DNA from: Deltaproteobacteria bacterium
Lineage (GTDB): Bacteria; Myxococcota; Myxococcia; Myxococcales; JAHFDP01
NCBI GenBank assembly: GCA_023248955.1
Contig: JAHFDP010000027.1
Location: forward strand, 1-47,036
Length of the DNA stretch: 47,036 nucleotides
Reading direction: 5' to 3'
This document shows positions 16,052-20,739 of this stretch, in pieces. A program made the translations under genes and the position numbers. Every line of letters starts with the position of its first letter. Positions within the stretch are counted from its first letter, which is position 1. The notes below the pieces were generated by a model. That model searched no databases and was not told the origin of the DNA. It saw nothing but the letters and a program-made list of their open reading frames with translations.

Positions 16052-17269
16052 TTAGTACCGCCGCACCGTCAAAAGCGTCACGCGGCCGGGGTTGATTTCC
16101 ACGTCATGCTCCGTGGTCTTTCCGTGCCCTTCGACGTGCACGCTCATTTTTCCACTTGGCAACCGAAAACGCGCGATTTGAAATTCTGCGGGCAGCGAAA
16201 GCCACGAGCGCAAATCGGCCGCATTGAGCGCCGAAAGCAGAATAAACGTGAGCTCGCCGATCGCTTTACTGTCGGTCAGCTGCGCCGCGGCCACGCCGAT
16301 TCCGGCTTTCACCGCTGCGCCCGCGAGCTGTTTCGCGACCATGCGGCCGATGCGATCTTCGAGATGCGTCTTGGCTACTTCACGAAGCGACGTCACCGTG
16401 ACGGTTGGCTCGGCTGCATCGCCAATGCGAACGGTGACCTGCGGCGGCGCGCCGCGATCCTGGTAGGCGGGAACTTTGATGATCTCTACTGCGCCGTTGT
16501 GTTCTTCATGACGATCGGCCGGTTCCTTCTGCGGAGACAATCCGGCCTCGACCACCACCACGAGTTGTCCTTCGCTGCGCGTGAGGTCGGTTTCGTCGGC
16601 CGCCGGGTACTTAGTCTTCAACGTGCGGTAGGCGTCGTCTCGTCCCGTTCGTCTCGCCAGCCGCACCAGGGCGTCCGCCAGCGCGCCCAAATTTCCAGCG
16701 AGCCGTTCCGCTTCGCTGTAATCGATGAACGCCGCGTCTTCGTCGCCCTGATCTTCGTAGAGCACGCCGCCGAGATAACGCGCGATGGCCAGCTGCTGGT
16801 AAGGTTTTTTCTCCTCGTTGATCATCTTGCGCATGCGCTCGTTGACGCGGCGAATTTCCACCAGCGCATCTTCGTCGCGCTTGAGCTCGGCGTAGTTGAG
16901 CGCTTGCAATACACTCACCATCAGCTTCTCAAAATCTTCGCCGCGGTAGGCGCGCTCACGCTCGTTCGTCACCAGCGCCGACGCCTCTTCGCTCACCGAA
17001 GTGAAATCGAGTTGCTGCGAAAGCTTGTCGGCCTCCGCCAGCACTTTGATGCTCTCTTCGTATTTGCCGGCCGCGTGAAGAATCATTCCGCGATCGAGCA
17101 GCACGAGGAGCTTGTCGATGACCGGCCCTTTGTCCTCGGGCTCTAGCGCTTTGAGCGCGCCGGGGTAGTCGTACGATTCGTACGATTGTCGCACGCCGCG
17201 CGTTCTGGCGATGTAGTCACTCGCGCACGCCGACGTGGCGAGCGCCAGCAACGCCGCGGCCTTTCTCAT
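16052..17269 (-). CDS. TPR-like lipoprotein, COG3014 type
   Basis: A 405-residue putative lipoprotein: the leader MRKAAALLALATSAC ends in a lipidatable cysteine. The first 220 residues are a chain of helical hairpins of TPR type (for example AALEPEDKGP.. LLDRGMILHAAGKYEESIKVLAEA, and ALNYAELKRDEDALVEIRRVN). The second half contains a beta-rich stretch and a hydrophobic helix (about 320-350). The architecture matches the COG3014 proteins that I know to be encoded next to LpoB in several Gram-negatives; that match is from memory of family context, not from a search. It is the last gene of the LpoB operon, starting three bases after the lpoB stop. A scaffold or accessory role for LpoB is inference. 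Confidence 0.68.
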   Translation of the reverse strand: MRKAAALLALATSACASDYIARTRGVRQSYESYDYPGALKALEPEDKGPVIDKLLVLLDRGMILHAAGKYEESIKVLAEADKLSQQLDFTSVSEEASALVTNERERAYRGEDFEKLMVSVLQALNYAELKRDEDALVEIRRVNERMRKMINEEKKPYQQLAIARYLGGVLYEDQGDEDAAFIDYSEAERLAGNLGALADALVRLARRTGRDDAYRTLKTKYPAADETDLTRSEGQLVVVVEAGLSPQKEPADRHEEHNGAVEIIKVPAYQDRGAPPQVTVRIGDAAEPTVTVTSLREVAKTHLEDRIGRMVAKQLAGAAVKAGIGVAAAQLTDSKAIGELTFILLSALNAADLRSWLSLPAEFQIARFRLPSGKMSVHVEGHGKTTEHDVEINPGRVTLLTVRRY

Positions 17270-17272
17270 GCG

Positions 17273-17866
17273 CTACCAGCTCACGCCTTTTTTCTCGAAC
17301 TTCTTGCGCAGCTCTTTTTCGTCGGTCCACTCGACGACGCCGGACTTGAGGTTATGAAGCTTGGACGTCATCTTGTAATAGACGAGCTTGTCGGCGCCGA
17401 CCTCTTGCACGATGGAGGAAATCTCGCCGGTGAGCAGATAATCTACCGAGGCCTGATTGCCGGGCCCCTTCGCCTCACCTGGCTTCACGTAGCCCGATCC
17501 CTGGAATTCATATTCCTTGGCGATCTCTTCGCGCGCCTCTTTGTCCTGAAACGAAAATTTTCCGAGTCGTGAGAGCTGCACCTGAATCTTGTCGGCCAGC
17601 GATCGCATGTCGATGTGCTCGGAGGTGCTGTTCTTCATCTTGCCCACCACCAGCACGGGTTTGCCGGGAATTTGCGTGAAGGATGGCGACGTCTCCAGCG
17701 AGTCGACCATCTTCTTCGCGATGAGTTGCAAGTCGTTTTCGTTGAATTGATCGGAGAGCATCTCGATGGTGTTGGGATCTTCGTAGGTGCCACGCGTGAA
17801 GGCGCGCGGCCCGGCGCAAGCGGCGAGGGCGGATCCGACGAGAGCGATCTTTCTGAACGTCATCAT
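17273..17866 (-). CDS. lpoB: LpoB-like penicillin-binding protein activator lipoprotein
   Basis: LpoB is an outer-membrane lipoprotein that in E. coli reaches through the periplasm to activate PBP1B, driving septal peptidoglycan synthesis. This 197-residue protein has lipobox LAAC (C about residue 16) and the recognisable LpoB core: MVDSLETSPSF, VLVVGKMKNSTSEHID, LADKIQVQLSRLGKF, VDYLLTGEISSIV, VYYKMTSKL and VVEWTDEKELRKKFEKKGVSW. The disordered Pro/Gln-rich spacer of the E. coli protein is nearly absent, so the reach into the periplasm would be short. AAGGGAG placed just upstream of the tandem ATG ATG decides the start (17866 or 17863). It is the third gene of a four-gene minus-strand operon. 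No PBP1B gene is in the window. Confidence 0.9.
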   Translation of the reverse strand: MMTFRKIALVGSALAACAGPRAFTRGTYEDPNTIEMLSDQFNENDLQLIAKKMVDSLETSPSFTQIPGKPVLVVGKMKNSTSEHIDMRSLADKIQVQLSRLGKFSFQDKEAREEIAKEYEFQGSGYVKPGEAKGPGNQASVDYLLTGEISSIVQEVGADKLVYYKMTSKLHNLKSGVVEWTDEKELRKKFEKKGVSW

Positions 17867-17874
17867 GTTCTCCC

Positions 17875-18648
17875 TTAATTCCATTCACATTCGAAACGGC
17901 TTCCAGCGAAATTCCAGCGATCGGTGAGCACGGCGTCGCGTTGATAACCGGCAGTCAGCCGGCAGAGGCTCTGCATCGACGCGCGCGGATAGTCGAGCGA
18001 ATACGTTTGCGCTTTGGCGCGCTCGGTGGACGAGAGGCCGCTCGGATGCGTGAGTGTCGGATTGGCGGAGGCGGCGACCAGCACGGTGTGCGCGCCGTAA
18101 ATCTTGAGCGGAACTTCTCCGATCAGACGGATGCGCCGAACGGTGTGAGCAATCAAAAGGTCACTTTTGTCCACCATCGTTTCGTGCGCGAAACGGTGTG
18201 CCAGAAGATCGCCGAGGTTCGCGGAAAAGACGCGGGTAAGGTCGCCGTCGCTCACAAAGAAATAGAGAAAATTCTGCCGCGCCTCTTGGCTTTCGCCGGT
18301 GAGATCGAGCGTGAGGTCGAGCGTCAGCGCGCGGTTGGGCGCGAGCGAATGCAGCGAAACGGCGGCGATCACTTCTTTCGGCACGCCGTGATCCTTGAGC
18401 CGGATGAGACCGTCCGCCGAGGCGTCGCACGCGCAGCGCCGCTCGGAGATCATCTTCACCAGGGACGGTACGTCGAATCCGGCCTTCGACAATTTCACGA
18501 GCTCGTCGTCGGTGAGCGGTAGCTGCGCCGAGCGCTCGTAGATTTTCGGCAGCGCGTTGGCGTCCCACTGAATGATGTTGATGGTCTCGCTGTGCGCGTT
18601 CGGAAACGGCAGCGCGGCCAGTTGCGCGAGCAGAAGGGCGGCCAGCAT
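17875..18648 (-). CDS. Secreted protein of unknown function in the lpoB operon
   Basis: A 257-residue protein with a probable Sec signal peptide (MLAALLLAQLAALPFPNAHS). No family was recognised. A helical segment near residues 45-70 (LTDDELVKLSKAGFDVPSLVKMI) followed by a CACD motif and RLKDHGVPKEVIAAV looks like two short helical repeats. The rest is beta-rich, including LTLDLTLDLTG and IRLIGEVPLKIYGAHTVLVAA, and contains four cysteines, which in an exported protein would likely pair. Its start overlaps the stop of the upstream barrel gene by one base, and its stop sits inside the lpoB ribosome-binding region, so all three are tightly coupled. A role in envelope assembly alongside LpoB is guilt by association. 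Confidence 0.7.
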   Translation of the reverse strand: MLAALLLAQLAALPFPNAHSETINIIQWDANALPKIYERSAQLPLTDDELVKLSKAGFDVPSLVKMISERRCACDASADGLIRLKDHGVPKEVIAAVSLHSLAPNRALTLDLTLDLTGESQEARQNFLYFFVSDGDLTRVFSANLGDLLAHRFAHETMVDKSDLLIAHTVRRIRLIGEVPLKIYGAHTVLVAASANPTLTHPSGLSSTERAKAQTYSLDYPRASMQSLCRLTAGYQRDAVLTDRWNFAGSRFECEWN

Positions 18649-19184
18649 TAGAAACGCATCCCGATGTTCATGCCGATCTTGTGAGCAACGGTGATCGGGT
18701 TGCTGAACAAAATGTCGGGTGCGTAAAAAAGGCCGAGCGTCACGCGTCCGAGGAGAATGTCCGCGCCGACGTTGGGCTGGAGGCCGAAACGCAGCGCGCC
18801 GTCTGAGGCGAATGTCGCGCCGGCTTTGAGTCCGAGGCTGGTGCTGACCGGGTAGAATGTGGTGCGCATACGCGGGCCGGCCAGGACGTCGAAGTTCTTT
18901 TGGTAGAAGAGGTACGACGCGGAGACGTCGATCAGGAACCAGTCGTCCGCCCAGTAAGAACCGGTAAGACCGACGAAGAGCGGCGCGCCTGGTGAGGCCG
19001 GTGCAGCGCCGCCTGCGTAGCCCCAGTCGAGACCGAGCGAGTAGTTGCCGCCTCCGACGCGCTCGTAACCGCCTTTGCCAATTTCAGATCCTTCGGGACC
19101 GTCGGTGCGGCCATCGGCCAGCGCGGCGAGCGGAAAGGCGAGCGCGCAGCAGAGCGTCAGGTTGCGAATGTTGCGGTGGGTCAT
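18648..19184 (-). CDS. Putative outer-membrane beta-barrel protein, first gene of lpoB operon
   Basis: A 178-residue exported protein with signal peptide MTHRNIRNLTLCCALAFPLAALA. The mature part alternates hydrophobic/aromatic and polar residues (YSLGLDWGYAG, FVGLTGSYWADDWFLIDVSASYLFYQKNF, VTLGLFYAPDIL) and ends in a terminal Phe (GMNIGMRF), the typical signature for BamA-dependent outer-membrane insertion. Six to eight strands are likely, so this would be a small barrel. No specific family was recognised. Strong AAAGGAG eight bases upstream supports the ATG at 19184 and marks this as the first gene of the four-gene operon running to 16052. The promoter presumably lies in 19185-19270; I see no clear match to a consensus there. 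Confidence 0.72.
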   Translation of the reverse strand: MTHRNIRNLTLCCALAFPLAALADGRTDGPEGSEIGKGGYERVGGGNYSLGLDWGYAGGAAPASPGAPLFVGLTGSYWADDWFLIDVSASYLFYQKNFDVLAGPRMRTTFYPVSTSLGLKAGATFASDGALRFGLQPNVGADILLGRVTLGLFYAPDILFSNPITVAHKIGMNIGMRF

Positions 19185-19269
19185 GCAGGCTCCTTTAGCG
19201 GTACGGAAGGGACGTGACGCGGGGCAAGATATTCACGGCCCTTCGCTTACGTCCAAGTTTCGATTCGGT

Positions 19270-19505
19270 TTCAAGTCAAGAGTTGTCGATTAATTGCCAT
19301 CGACAACTCTTGACTTGAAGGGTCGGGCCGCCGCCCGCCCCTCTGCGCCGAGTGAATCGGCGCATGTGCGGCGCAGGTTAGAAACGCCGCCGGCCCGGAT
19401 GGAGGCGCTGGAAGCGCTCCGTCGGACCCCGGGCTCACCCCACCCGCCGCCGCGCTCAAGATTGCGCGTCGGATTGAAGAGCTGCCGATTAATCGACAGC
19501 TCTTC
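19270..19505. repeat. Structured dispersed repeat, copy 1 of 3
   Basis: The left end is a perfect 21-bp inverted repeat (19270-19290 and 19299-19319, eight-base loop). The right end is a 15-bp palindrome with one G:T wobble (19476-19490 and 19491-19505) that overlaps the stop codon of the ceramidase-like gene. Between them are further stems: TGCGCCGA/TCGGCGCA, GCGGCG (19368-19373) with CGCCGC (19385-19390), and GCGCT/AGCGC near 19404. A 53-bp block (19315-19367) is identical to copy 2. This element accounts for most of the 319-base gap before 19504. It may terminate transcripts from either side. Confidence 0.8.
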
Positions 19506-20739
19506 ATTGCGCGATCGCAACCGCGCGCGCCGCCGTGGCCAAGCCGTCCGCGATCACCGTGCCGAGTTGCGGACCGTAGTAGACGCGCTTCGCTTCGCCT
19601 TCGCCGCGCTCCCACATTTCGGGCGTTTCGACGTAGCCGATATAGTCGGAGGCCAGCGAAACGACCGCGGCGATTTTGGCGCCGGTGAGATCGCGCAACA
19701 TGTTGCGCCACGGCTCGCCGAATGCGCCGACCGGTTCGCCGGGGACGAACCCGAGCACGACGTCGCCGAGACGCAGCACGGAGACGACGGTGGTGCGGGA
19801 ACGCCAAGGGAGGAGGAGATTCGTTAGGAGACGTTGCAGCGGCCACGGGCCGGCGCGCATGCGGAGTGGTGGGAGGGCGATTTCGACACGGGCGAGGGAA
19901 ACCGGAGTGCAACGCAGTTGCTGCACTGGTGCCAGCCAAGCGTCGAGCGCGTCGCCGTCACGTAGAAGTTGTCCAGGGGCTGCGTCGCCCCCGGCTCCTT
20001 GGAAAACAAATCCGTGATCGAAATGGTCCGGCACGTCTCTGGAGAGCCGGGGTTCGCGCCCGGCGGTGGTCGGATGCGCGGCGAGGATGAGCGCATCGAA
20101 GCCGTCGAAGTCCTCGCTCAAATTCAAGACCGTAACAGTCTGGTCCGGATCGCGACCCGGCGTCCGTCCGGTATTGAACGTCGCGGTCGGAACCTGCGTT
20201 GCTTCGAGCACGCATGGCGAGCTGTCCTGGGATGGCGCGACAAGTGTGCGCTCGCTCGCGCTTACGATGGCGCTTCGGACCGTTGGATTGAAGCGGCCAA
20301 GCGCGCCGACTTCAAAAGGAAGCGCTTGGAAGTAGCCCCCTGGTCCGGAGTGTGTGTGCGTTGCAACAACGAGCACATTTCGATTGCCTGCACGCTCTTG
20401 AATCTCGCGCTCAAGTCCCGGGGCAATGAGAAGAAGGTCGAGCAGCACGATGGCTACAACCCGTTTCCCCGCCGAGTTGAACCGTAAAGTCCGAGCACCA
20501 ACGCTGCCTTGAATGCCTCCACTTGCCTCGCGATTTTTCCAGCCCGGATAGCCTGCAATATGGATTTTCGGAGGGAGGTCGAACGACTCGTTTGCGACTT
20601 CAACGGTCAGTTCGCTGTCGGCACGTACCGTCGGTACGGGTTGCACATTTGGCGGTTTCTCAAACCACTGCAAATCCACCGTTGCCAGCACGATCAGCAG
20701 CGCGACGCCAATGGATCCAACCAGACGCATTCGCCGCAC
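19504..20739 (-). CDS. Short neutral/alkaline ceramidase-like hydrolase
   Basis: A 411-residue protein related to the N-terminal catalytic domain of neutral/alkaline non-lysosomal ceramidases, zinc amidases that cut ceramide to sphingosine and fatty acid. The diagnostic motif THTHSGPGGYF (about residues 122-132) provides zinc histidines and the active-site Ser-Gly-Pro stretch, preceded by LLLIAPGLEREI. Late motifs such as FVPGEPVGAFG and SDYIGYVETPEMWE are also typical. Characterised enzymes are much longer because of a C-terminal Ig-like domain, which is absent here. An N-terminal hydrophobic segment (MRLVGSIGVALLIVLATV) is a membrane anchor or signal. The GTG at 20739, with AAGGA eight bases upstream, fits better than the far upstream ATG of the open frame. 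The stop lies inside the repeat's right hairpin. Confidence 0.82.
   Translation of the reverse strand: MRRMRLVGSIGVALLIVLATVDLQWFEKPPNVQPVPTVRADSELTVEVANESFDLPPKIHIAGYPGWKNREASGGIQGSVGARTLRFNSAGKRVVAIVLLDLLLIAPGLEREIQERAGNRNVLVVATHTHSGPGGYFQALPFEVGALGRFNPTVRSAIVSASERTLVAPSQDSSPCVLEATQVPTATFNTGRTPGRDPDQTVTVLNLSEDFDGFDALILAAHPTTAGREPRLSRDVPDHFDHGFVFQGAGGDAAPGQLLRDGDALDAWLAPVQQLRCTPVSLARVEIALPPLRMRAGPWPLQRLLTNLLLPWRSRTTVVSVLRLGDVVLGFVPGEPVGAFGEPWRNMLRDLTGAKIAAVVSLASDYIGYVETPEMWERGEGEAKRVYYGPQLGTVIADGLATAARAVAIAQ

Follow-up and report, generated by a model that had tools for sequence, protein, structure and literature searches.

In Escherichia coli, the lipoprotein LpoB (YcfM) activates the peptidoglycan synthase PBP1B, a class A penicillin-binding protein (PBP) in which the UB2H domain serves as the docking domain. 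In the original study, LpoB and UB2H are called recent and enterobacterial, LpoB is presented as having co-evolved with UB2H and, using a 100-bit cut-off in more than 400 species, LpoB is called restricted to enterobacteria (Typas et al., 2010; PMC3060616). Two arrangements have been described in which an LpoB relative goes with a tetratricopeptide repeat (TPR) lipoprotein. In Campylobacter jejuni, a TPR lipoprotein and Cj0091 are encoded together in the operon cj0089-cj0090-cj0091, in a report whose main text does not use the name LpoB (PMC3100323). In many enterohepatic Helicobacter, the homologue of the TPR lipoprotein HP0018 lies beside that of HP1457, an orthologue of Cj0091 which the report does name an LpoB homologue; deletion of HP0018 led to hypervesiculation and altered cell shape, and co-immunoprecipitation pointed to MltD and AmiA as its potential partners (PMC11394524). 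LpoA and LpoP are likewise outer-membrane lipoproteins, and the N-terminal domain of LpoA is TPR-like (PMC9593243). Here we consider a locus of a Deltaproteobacteria bacterium of the phylum Myxococcota. The window, that is the whole stretch analysed, is the 47,036-nucleotide contig JAHFDP010000027.1. On its minus strand, at 16052-19184, an operon encodes, in the order of transcription, a small outer-membrane beta-barrel protein, a protein of no known family hereafter called P3, LpoB and a TPR lipoprotein.

The four genes form a conserved set, met again in distant bacterial groups and in two different gene orders. Among 195 Myxococcota genomes, matches to the TPR lipoprotein were found in 99, to the barrel in 72 and to P3 in 67. 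The barrel, P3 and TPR genes occur in this order, on one contig and strand, in 63 of the 67 genomes with P3. The gap between P3 and TPR measures 608-822 bases, and LpoB fills it in all 14 loci that were opened (L088-L092, L094, L095, L105, L122-L127). Two of the exceptions, G102 and G150, correspond to genes placed on different contigs of fragmented assemblies. In another, G002, no gene of the TPR family, which we take to be of the COG3014 type, was found, and in the last, G024, there is none on the 8.5-kb contig, the single TPR match being on another contig. Three genomes (G011, G031, G034) keep barrel, LpoB and TPR and miss P3. When named genomes were scanned with the P3 alignment, 45 loci were obtained, and 39 of them show all four genes (the barrel of L176 being cut by the contig end); the gene layout was drawn up for twelve. 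The six incomplete ones are either cut by a contig end (L160, L168, L184, L186) or have no TPR gene seen (L172, L174). Ten of the 39 complete loci (L175-L183, L185) lie outside Myxococcota by their record titles, on which the placement of these metagenome-assembled genomes rests: Latescibacterota, Gemmatimonadetes, Gemmatimonadaceae, Gemmatimonas, Handelsmanbacteria and uncultured bacterium. These ten loci have the order TPR-P3-LpoB-barrel, with P3 at 41-45% identity. Since the same gene set is found in another order, a functional link between the four genes is favored over an inherited arrangement. The preliminary description of the locus had raised the possibility of a distinct assembly, and a distinct conserved gene set is supported; adjacency in this genome only, which that description gave as a refutation, is ruled out by the 63 Myxococcota genomes and the ten loci elsewhere. 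The full operon is also carried by Myxococcus xanthus AM003 (L173). As a side remark, a record titled Comamonas sp. KCTC 72670 (L161) carries the operon; it seems to correspond to G056, a genome placed in one genus group with Myxococcus-titled records, and its title looks wrong.

The identity of the third gene product as LpoB, already put forward from a first look at the DNA, is secure at the level of sequence. The protein matches PF13036 over model positions 1-146 of 147 (E = 1.3e-37, 129.4 bits for a cut-off of 22.3) and the NCBIfam equivalog TIGR02722 (157.6 bits, cut-off 110.55). As a single sequence it gave no match to the E. coli LpoB structures, and a profile built from 24 LpoB relatives matches two of them, 4q6l and 2mii (E = 1.1e-6). 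The lipoprotein cysteine, Cys18, is invariant in all 24 aligned sequences. In E. coli LpoB, a long flexible linker precedes the folded domain. The segment before the domain is apparently shorter here, with 28 positions between Cys18 and the start of the Pfam domain, while the matched core of 2mii begins at chain residue 86. The earlier wording, an LpoB with almost no flexible spacer, is thus correct as to shortness, but in the 24-sequence alignment this segment is not an empty linker, its sequence being conserved. The earlier description also noted that LpoB is best studied in gammaproteobacteria and spoke of a possible assembly in this lineage; LpoB is restricted to neither. Several other LpoB-like genes were met. 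Two weak PF13036 matches in the same genome, G000:C112:16137-16331 and G000:C114:13260-13472 (31.9 and 27.1 bits), are over the Pfam cut-off and under that of TIGR02722. In G024 (L096 1563-2531) and G002 (L097 6087-6953), LpoB has a C-terminal extension with hydrophobic stretches (322 and 288 residues in total), a second LpoB-like copy lies nearby, below cut-off in G024, and no TPR gene was seen adjoining.

The known partner domain of LpoB was searched for in the genome from which the window comes. GT51 matches occur at three places: one is a short protein and the others are bifunctional class A PBPs. Both of these PBPs have the architecture Transgly/PCB_OB/Transpeptidase and show no UB2H in a scan that does reveal this domain in a control protein from another Myxococcota family. 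The two UB2H matches of the genome (23.5 and 22.1 bits) are below cut-off and sit on different contigs from the GT51 matches. Sixteen named genomes with the operon, taken from the 45 loci, were also tested: all have GT51, and none of their UB2H matches coincides with a GT51 place. In five of them, UB2H matches fall in open reading frames (ORFs) of 1,197-1,385 residues, on contigs without GT51 places. Among the 46 GT51 matches of these 16 genomes, 30 were fetched and 26 have the catalytic ED motif, the other 16 being outside the measurement. The catalytic motif follows the transmembrane helix at a distance of 54-63 residues in all 26 and in the three proteins of the window genome, versus 149 in the UB2H control, so that there is no room for UB2H. 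Hence, the known docking route of LpoB, a UB2H-bearing class A PBP, was not found in the window genome or in the 16 operon genomes, and the idea that the assembly gates peptidoglycan synthases in the known manner is not supported. A diverged or unassembled UB2H copy may exist, the window genome being 95.6% complete. In the phylum at large, UB2H matches in 122 of the 195 genomes were considered as PBP1B candidates and set aside, most of them lying in ORFs of about 1,200 or 700 residues. By these lengths, the ORFs may be Mfd and UvrB. A true UB2H-bearing class A PBP of the PBP1B type occurs in G075 (L111 3-2031); the next best match is in G076 (L112, 36.3 bits). A genome of the same family as G075, G077, has a distant LpoB-TPR pair (L107), and this lineage could serve to test the LpoB-UB2H link.

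Control of a synthase through another surface is possible. In such a case, LpoB would keep its classical role: the lipoprotein would cross the wall and activate a class A PBP through a surface other than UB2H, for instance the OB-type domain of PBP1A-like enzymes, the other three proteins being accessory. The equivalog score of LpoB, the presence of class A PBPs with PCB_OB and the occurrence of GT51 in every operon genome tested are consistent with this idea. It is nonetheless unlikely, in view of the lack of UB2H on the class A PBPs found, of the 28-position spacer, which makes reaching across the wall harder, and of the tie between LpoB and UB2H in Typas et al. (2010; PMC3060616).

The fourth protein had been called a TPR-like lipoprotein, and this description stands. 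TPR families gave sub-cut-off matches only in the Pfam scan. The AlphaFold 2 (AF2) monomer model (predicted local distance difference test, pLDDT, 86.4; predicted template-modelling score, pTM, 0.85) displays a TPR-like superhelix at residues ~24-220, followed by a beta domain with a long helix (295-332). In Foldseek, the best match of the model is to MamA (E = 3.6e-4) and its N-terminal half matches TPR proteins. With VIA-align, the matches listed are mostly TPR proteins (Z 12.2-15.0, rmsd 1.9-6.0, 134-230 residues), a Z under ~13 not being decisive for helical repeats. The profile of the family matches, over 381 columns, a gene located near lpoB in Aeromonas (hhalign probability 100, E = 2.3e-40). 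To our knowledge, LpoA and LpoP are not encoded together with LpoB, and the window TPR protein gave no match to a family named LpoA or LpoP. Two loci of genomes that also have the operon, L135 (4878-6125) and L136 (5191-6453), contain diverged second TPR paralogues (33% and 29% identity) with no LpoB match adjoining.

A TPR lipoprotein as the partner of LpoB is not new. In an Aeromonas caviae record (L141, 4.9 Mb), the order is TPR lipoprotein, YcfL (DUF1425), LpoB; the TPR protein and LpoB (38% identical over 177 residues) are homologous to those of the window, and in both cases the gene just upstream of lpoB encodes a small exported protein. The middle gene and the gene order differ. This record is titled plasmid pKAM479_3 and, with lpoB-type genes on 4.9 Mb, is probably a mislabelled chromosome. 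The pairing is also published for Campylobacter, where Cj0090 is of about 12 kDa, and for Helicobacter (PMC3100323; PMC11394524). The parts of these reports consulted mention no barrel or P3, and the roles that they describe concern adherence and envelope shape. The added parts are therefore P3 and the barrel, and being embedded with them in a four-gene operon is one way in which the window LpoB differs from that of E. coli. Using the window LpoB as query, no LpoB was found beside other TPR relatives (L102, L104, L130, L133-L137, L139); in L102 and L104 (G022 and G005), the family model places a sub-cut-off LpoB adjoining the TPR gene.

P3 had been described as a secreted, cysteine-containing protein of unknown family. 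No Pfam or NCBIfam family was matched at E values up to 1, and Cys72, Cys74, Cys229 and Cys254 are invariant in all 36 aligned homologues, in line with this description. The protein is probably exported, judging from its N-terminus. Its AF2 monomer model (pLDDT 82.9, pTM 0.74) comprises helical hairpins at ~47-100 and a beta-sandwich at 103-257. A disulfide between Cys229 and Cys254 is plausible, because these residues lie on strands that are neighbours along the sequence. The best VIA-align match of the model has a Z of 5.8 (rmsd 4.4, 102 residues), the N-terminal half being barely tested. The region 103-257 gave scattered beta-sandwich matches, including TssJ-type lipoproteins and transthyretins, from which no fold is claimed. 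Against PDB sequences, the P3 profile gave short matches only (best E = 0.0083 over 47 residues). A relationship with YcfL, which is also encoded directly upstream of lpoB, was considered and rejected on sequence: none of the 36 P3 homologues scanned matched DUF1425, and hhalign of P3 with Aeromonas YcfL gave a probability of 0.9, i.e., no sequence homology. The DUF1425-like structure 3o0l is not among the matches listed for the P3 model, which does not exclude a shared fold. An internal duplication of the two helical hairpins was also dismissed as not significant, its score being reached in 70 of 500 shuffles.

The presence of an exported protein in the operon brings to mind an export or assembly device, in which LpoB, as a member of a CsgG/TolB-N-like fold group, would help, together with the barrel and the TPR protein, to bring P3 or further proteins to the outer membrane or through it. 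LpoB members do show sub-cut-off matches to CsgG and TolB_N, P3 is co-encoded, with an export-type N-terminus and a beta-sandwich in its C-terminal part, and TPR lipoproteins are often scaffolds. Such a device is however very unlikely: the CsgG match of the window LpoB is below cut-off (12.4 versus 20.8 bits), a barrel of 178 residues, signal included, is too small for a secretion pore, and P3 is the gene missing from the three Myxococcota genomes that keep the other ones.

The assignment of the first gene to a small barrel, made at the outset, is in keeping with its C-terminal Phe and with a homologue from a record titled uncultured bacterium (L175:7408-7977), which exceeds the Pfam OmpA_membrane cut-off (23.6 versus 21.0 bits); the window barrel itself matched no Pfam or NCBIfam family. 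Directly after the signal-like stretch, the protein reads GRTDGPEGSEYGKGGY, with little variation. Between 18 Myxococcota sequences and eight from other groups, mean identity is 84% in this tail and 21% in the rest of the barrel. Of 43 named loci, 42 carry the pattern T.G...S[EH].G.GGY, the remaining one being truncated at a contig end. Of 19 phylum loci, 17 carry it, the misses being L128, with T for S, and the orphan L138. Genomes lacking P3 can retain the tail, as do G034 (L093) and, with the one S-to-T change, G011 (L128), and the tail is likewise retained in G002 (L097), where TPR is missing. Two genomes, G021 and G153, have a barrel and neither P3, TPR nor an LpoB over cut-off (one match of 20.2 bits in G153 for a cut-off of 110.55, none in G021). 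Their tails are degenerate, GRASAPEGSELDYGGY in G021 and SGGGVPEEAERGLGGY in G153, while a congeneric genome, G152, retains the complete operon, and its barrel tail is intact. In the cases seen, the tail thus follows LpoB. Because it survives without P3 or TPR and degenerates without LpoB, LpoB appears as the best candidate for the partner of the tail.

Taken together, the two lipoproteins, the exported protein and a barrel with such a tail are suggestive of an assembly at the inner face of the outer membrane. In the model that we favor, LpoB and the TPR lipoprotein would be lipid-anchored on this inner face. The conserved N-terminal peptide of the barrel, on the periplasmic side, would dock LpoB, directly or through the complex. 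P3 would act as an exported adaptor and the TPR superhelix would recruit a client. The complex would control hydrolases or a PBP1A-type synthase at the interface between outer membrane and wall, thereby coupling wall growth to the outer membrane. By analogy with HP0018, peptidoglycan remodelling would be the likeliest target, for which the chances are about even. As a whole, the proposal that the operon encodes an outer-membrane-anchored assembly controlling peptidoglycan remodelling without the UB2H of a PBP1B is tentative, and we give it somewhat less than an even chance.

Several observations weigh against this model. In distant Myxococcota, LpoB and TPR genes lie side by side with no P3 or barrel match nearby (L098-L101, L103, L106, L107, L129, L131, L132, L140), and a search of an 8-kb Aeromonas stretch revealed neither of the two, so that the LpoB-TPR core can exist without them. 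The Campylobacter report assigns to Cj0091 a different role, that of an adherence factor (PMC3100323), and HP0018 and Cj0089 were likened to the window TPR protein through published descriptions, not by alignment. The link between tail and LpoB comes from two degenerate orphan barrels of one genus, possibly reflecting one event, and P3 and TPR are also lost in these two genomes. As to the physical complex, the structure models are of monomers only, and as to the role of P3, its best Foldseek match has an E value of 4.3e-3 with a TM score of 0.22.

The same components could also form a mechanical tether between outer membrane and wall, with no enzyme as target, the loss of which would raise vesiculation. 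It would agree with the gathering of two lipoproteins and a barrel in one operon and with the hypervesiculating mutant of the Helicobacter TPR lipoprotein (PMC11394524). On the other hand, the Pfam and NCBIfam scans showed no peptidoglycan-binding domain in the four proteins, and in M. xanthus, which has the operon, outer-membrane division reportedly proceeds without coupling to the wall (PMC12132463), which makes a pure tether quite unlikely. Returning to an assembly that controls remodelling, it may be imagined that LpoB is older than the use of UB2H. An ancient complex, in which LpoB would read the barrel peptide GRTDGPEGSEYGKGGY together with TPR and, in some groups, P3, would have come first, and PBP1B switching via UB2H would be a later recruitment. 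This scenario is speculative and, to our mind, somewhat improbable.

The sequence bears out the tight four-gene operon, with its one-base overlap and a ribosome-binding site abutting the upstream stop, that the preliminary description had reported (Table 1). All four ORFs were confirmed. After the P3 stop codon TAA come GGGAG, AAC and the ATGATG of lpoB, the spacing between the two genes being eight bases, and three bases separate the lpoB TAG from the TPR ATG. Scans of the operon gave no promoter candidate and a single terminator site, scoring below the shuffle mean. Just upstream, at 19265-19515, stand two palindromes about 200 bases apart, whose stems fold with z values of -9.6 and -4.6. 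They are part of a dispersed element, its 15-base core having 37 matches with at most one mismatch in the genome versus none for the reversed control. In several places the copies are paired, 140-210 bases apart, and the element looks like a repetitive extragenic palindrome (REP) or a miniature inverted-repeat transposable element (MITE).

Table 1. Features of the operon on contig JAHFDP010000027.1, genes being listed in the order of transcription
Feature	Position	Strand	Remarks and basis
Gene 1, small outer-membrane beta-barrel protein	18648..19184	-	178 aa; signal peptide by eye; C-terminal Phe
Conserved tail at the mature N-terminus of the barrel protein (25-40), GRTDGPEGSEIGKGGY	19065..19112	-	Proposed docking peptide; between-group identity
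TAATG, barrel stop/P3 start, 1-base overlap	18646..18650	-	Sequence read directly
Gene 2, P3, predicted secreted, no known family	17875..18648	-	257 aa; four invariant Cys; homologues; AF2 model
P3 stop TAA, then directly Shine-Dalgarno-like GGGAG of lpoB	17870..17877	-	Sequence read directly
Gene 3, lpoB, lipoprotein (start 17866 or 17863)	17273..17866	-	Pfam and NCBIfam models; profile versus E. coli LpoB structures
Gene 4, TPR lipoprotein	16052..17269	-	405 aa; AF2 model; profile match to Aeromonas gene

With respect to previous work, the enterobacterial restriction of LpoB, as stated by Typas et al. (PMC3060616), is not borne out by these loci. A homologue outside gammaproteobacteria had already been named in the HP0018 paper (PMC11394524). 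In the literature searched, no mention was found of the four-gene set, of P3 or of the barrel tail, which is weak evidence of absence. A 2025 preprint describes M. xanthus as devoid of Lpp and of LpoA/B homologues, and part of its argument rests on the absence of LpoA and LpoB (PMC12132463). The operon of M. xanthus AM003 contradicts it as regards LpoB (TIGR02722, 205.7 bits, E = 6.3e-61), this contrast covering LpoB and not LpoA or Lpp. LpoB is the textbook case of an outer-membrane protein that activates a wall synthase. By offering a genetically tractable host, M. xanthus, along with three partner genes and a short peptide as candidate docking site, the present module makes the role of LpoB in the absence of UB2H directly testable.

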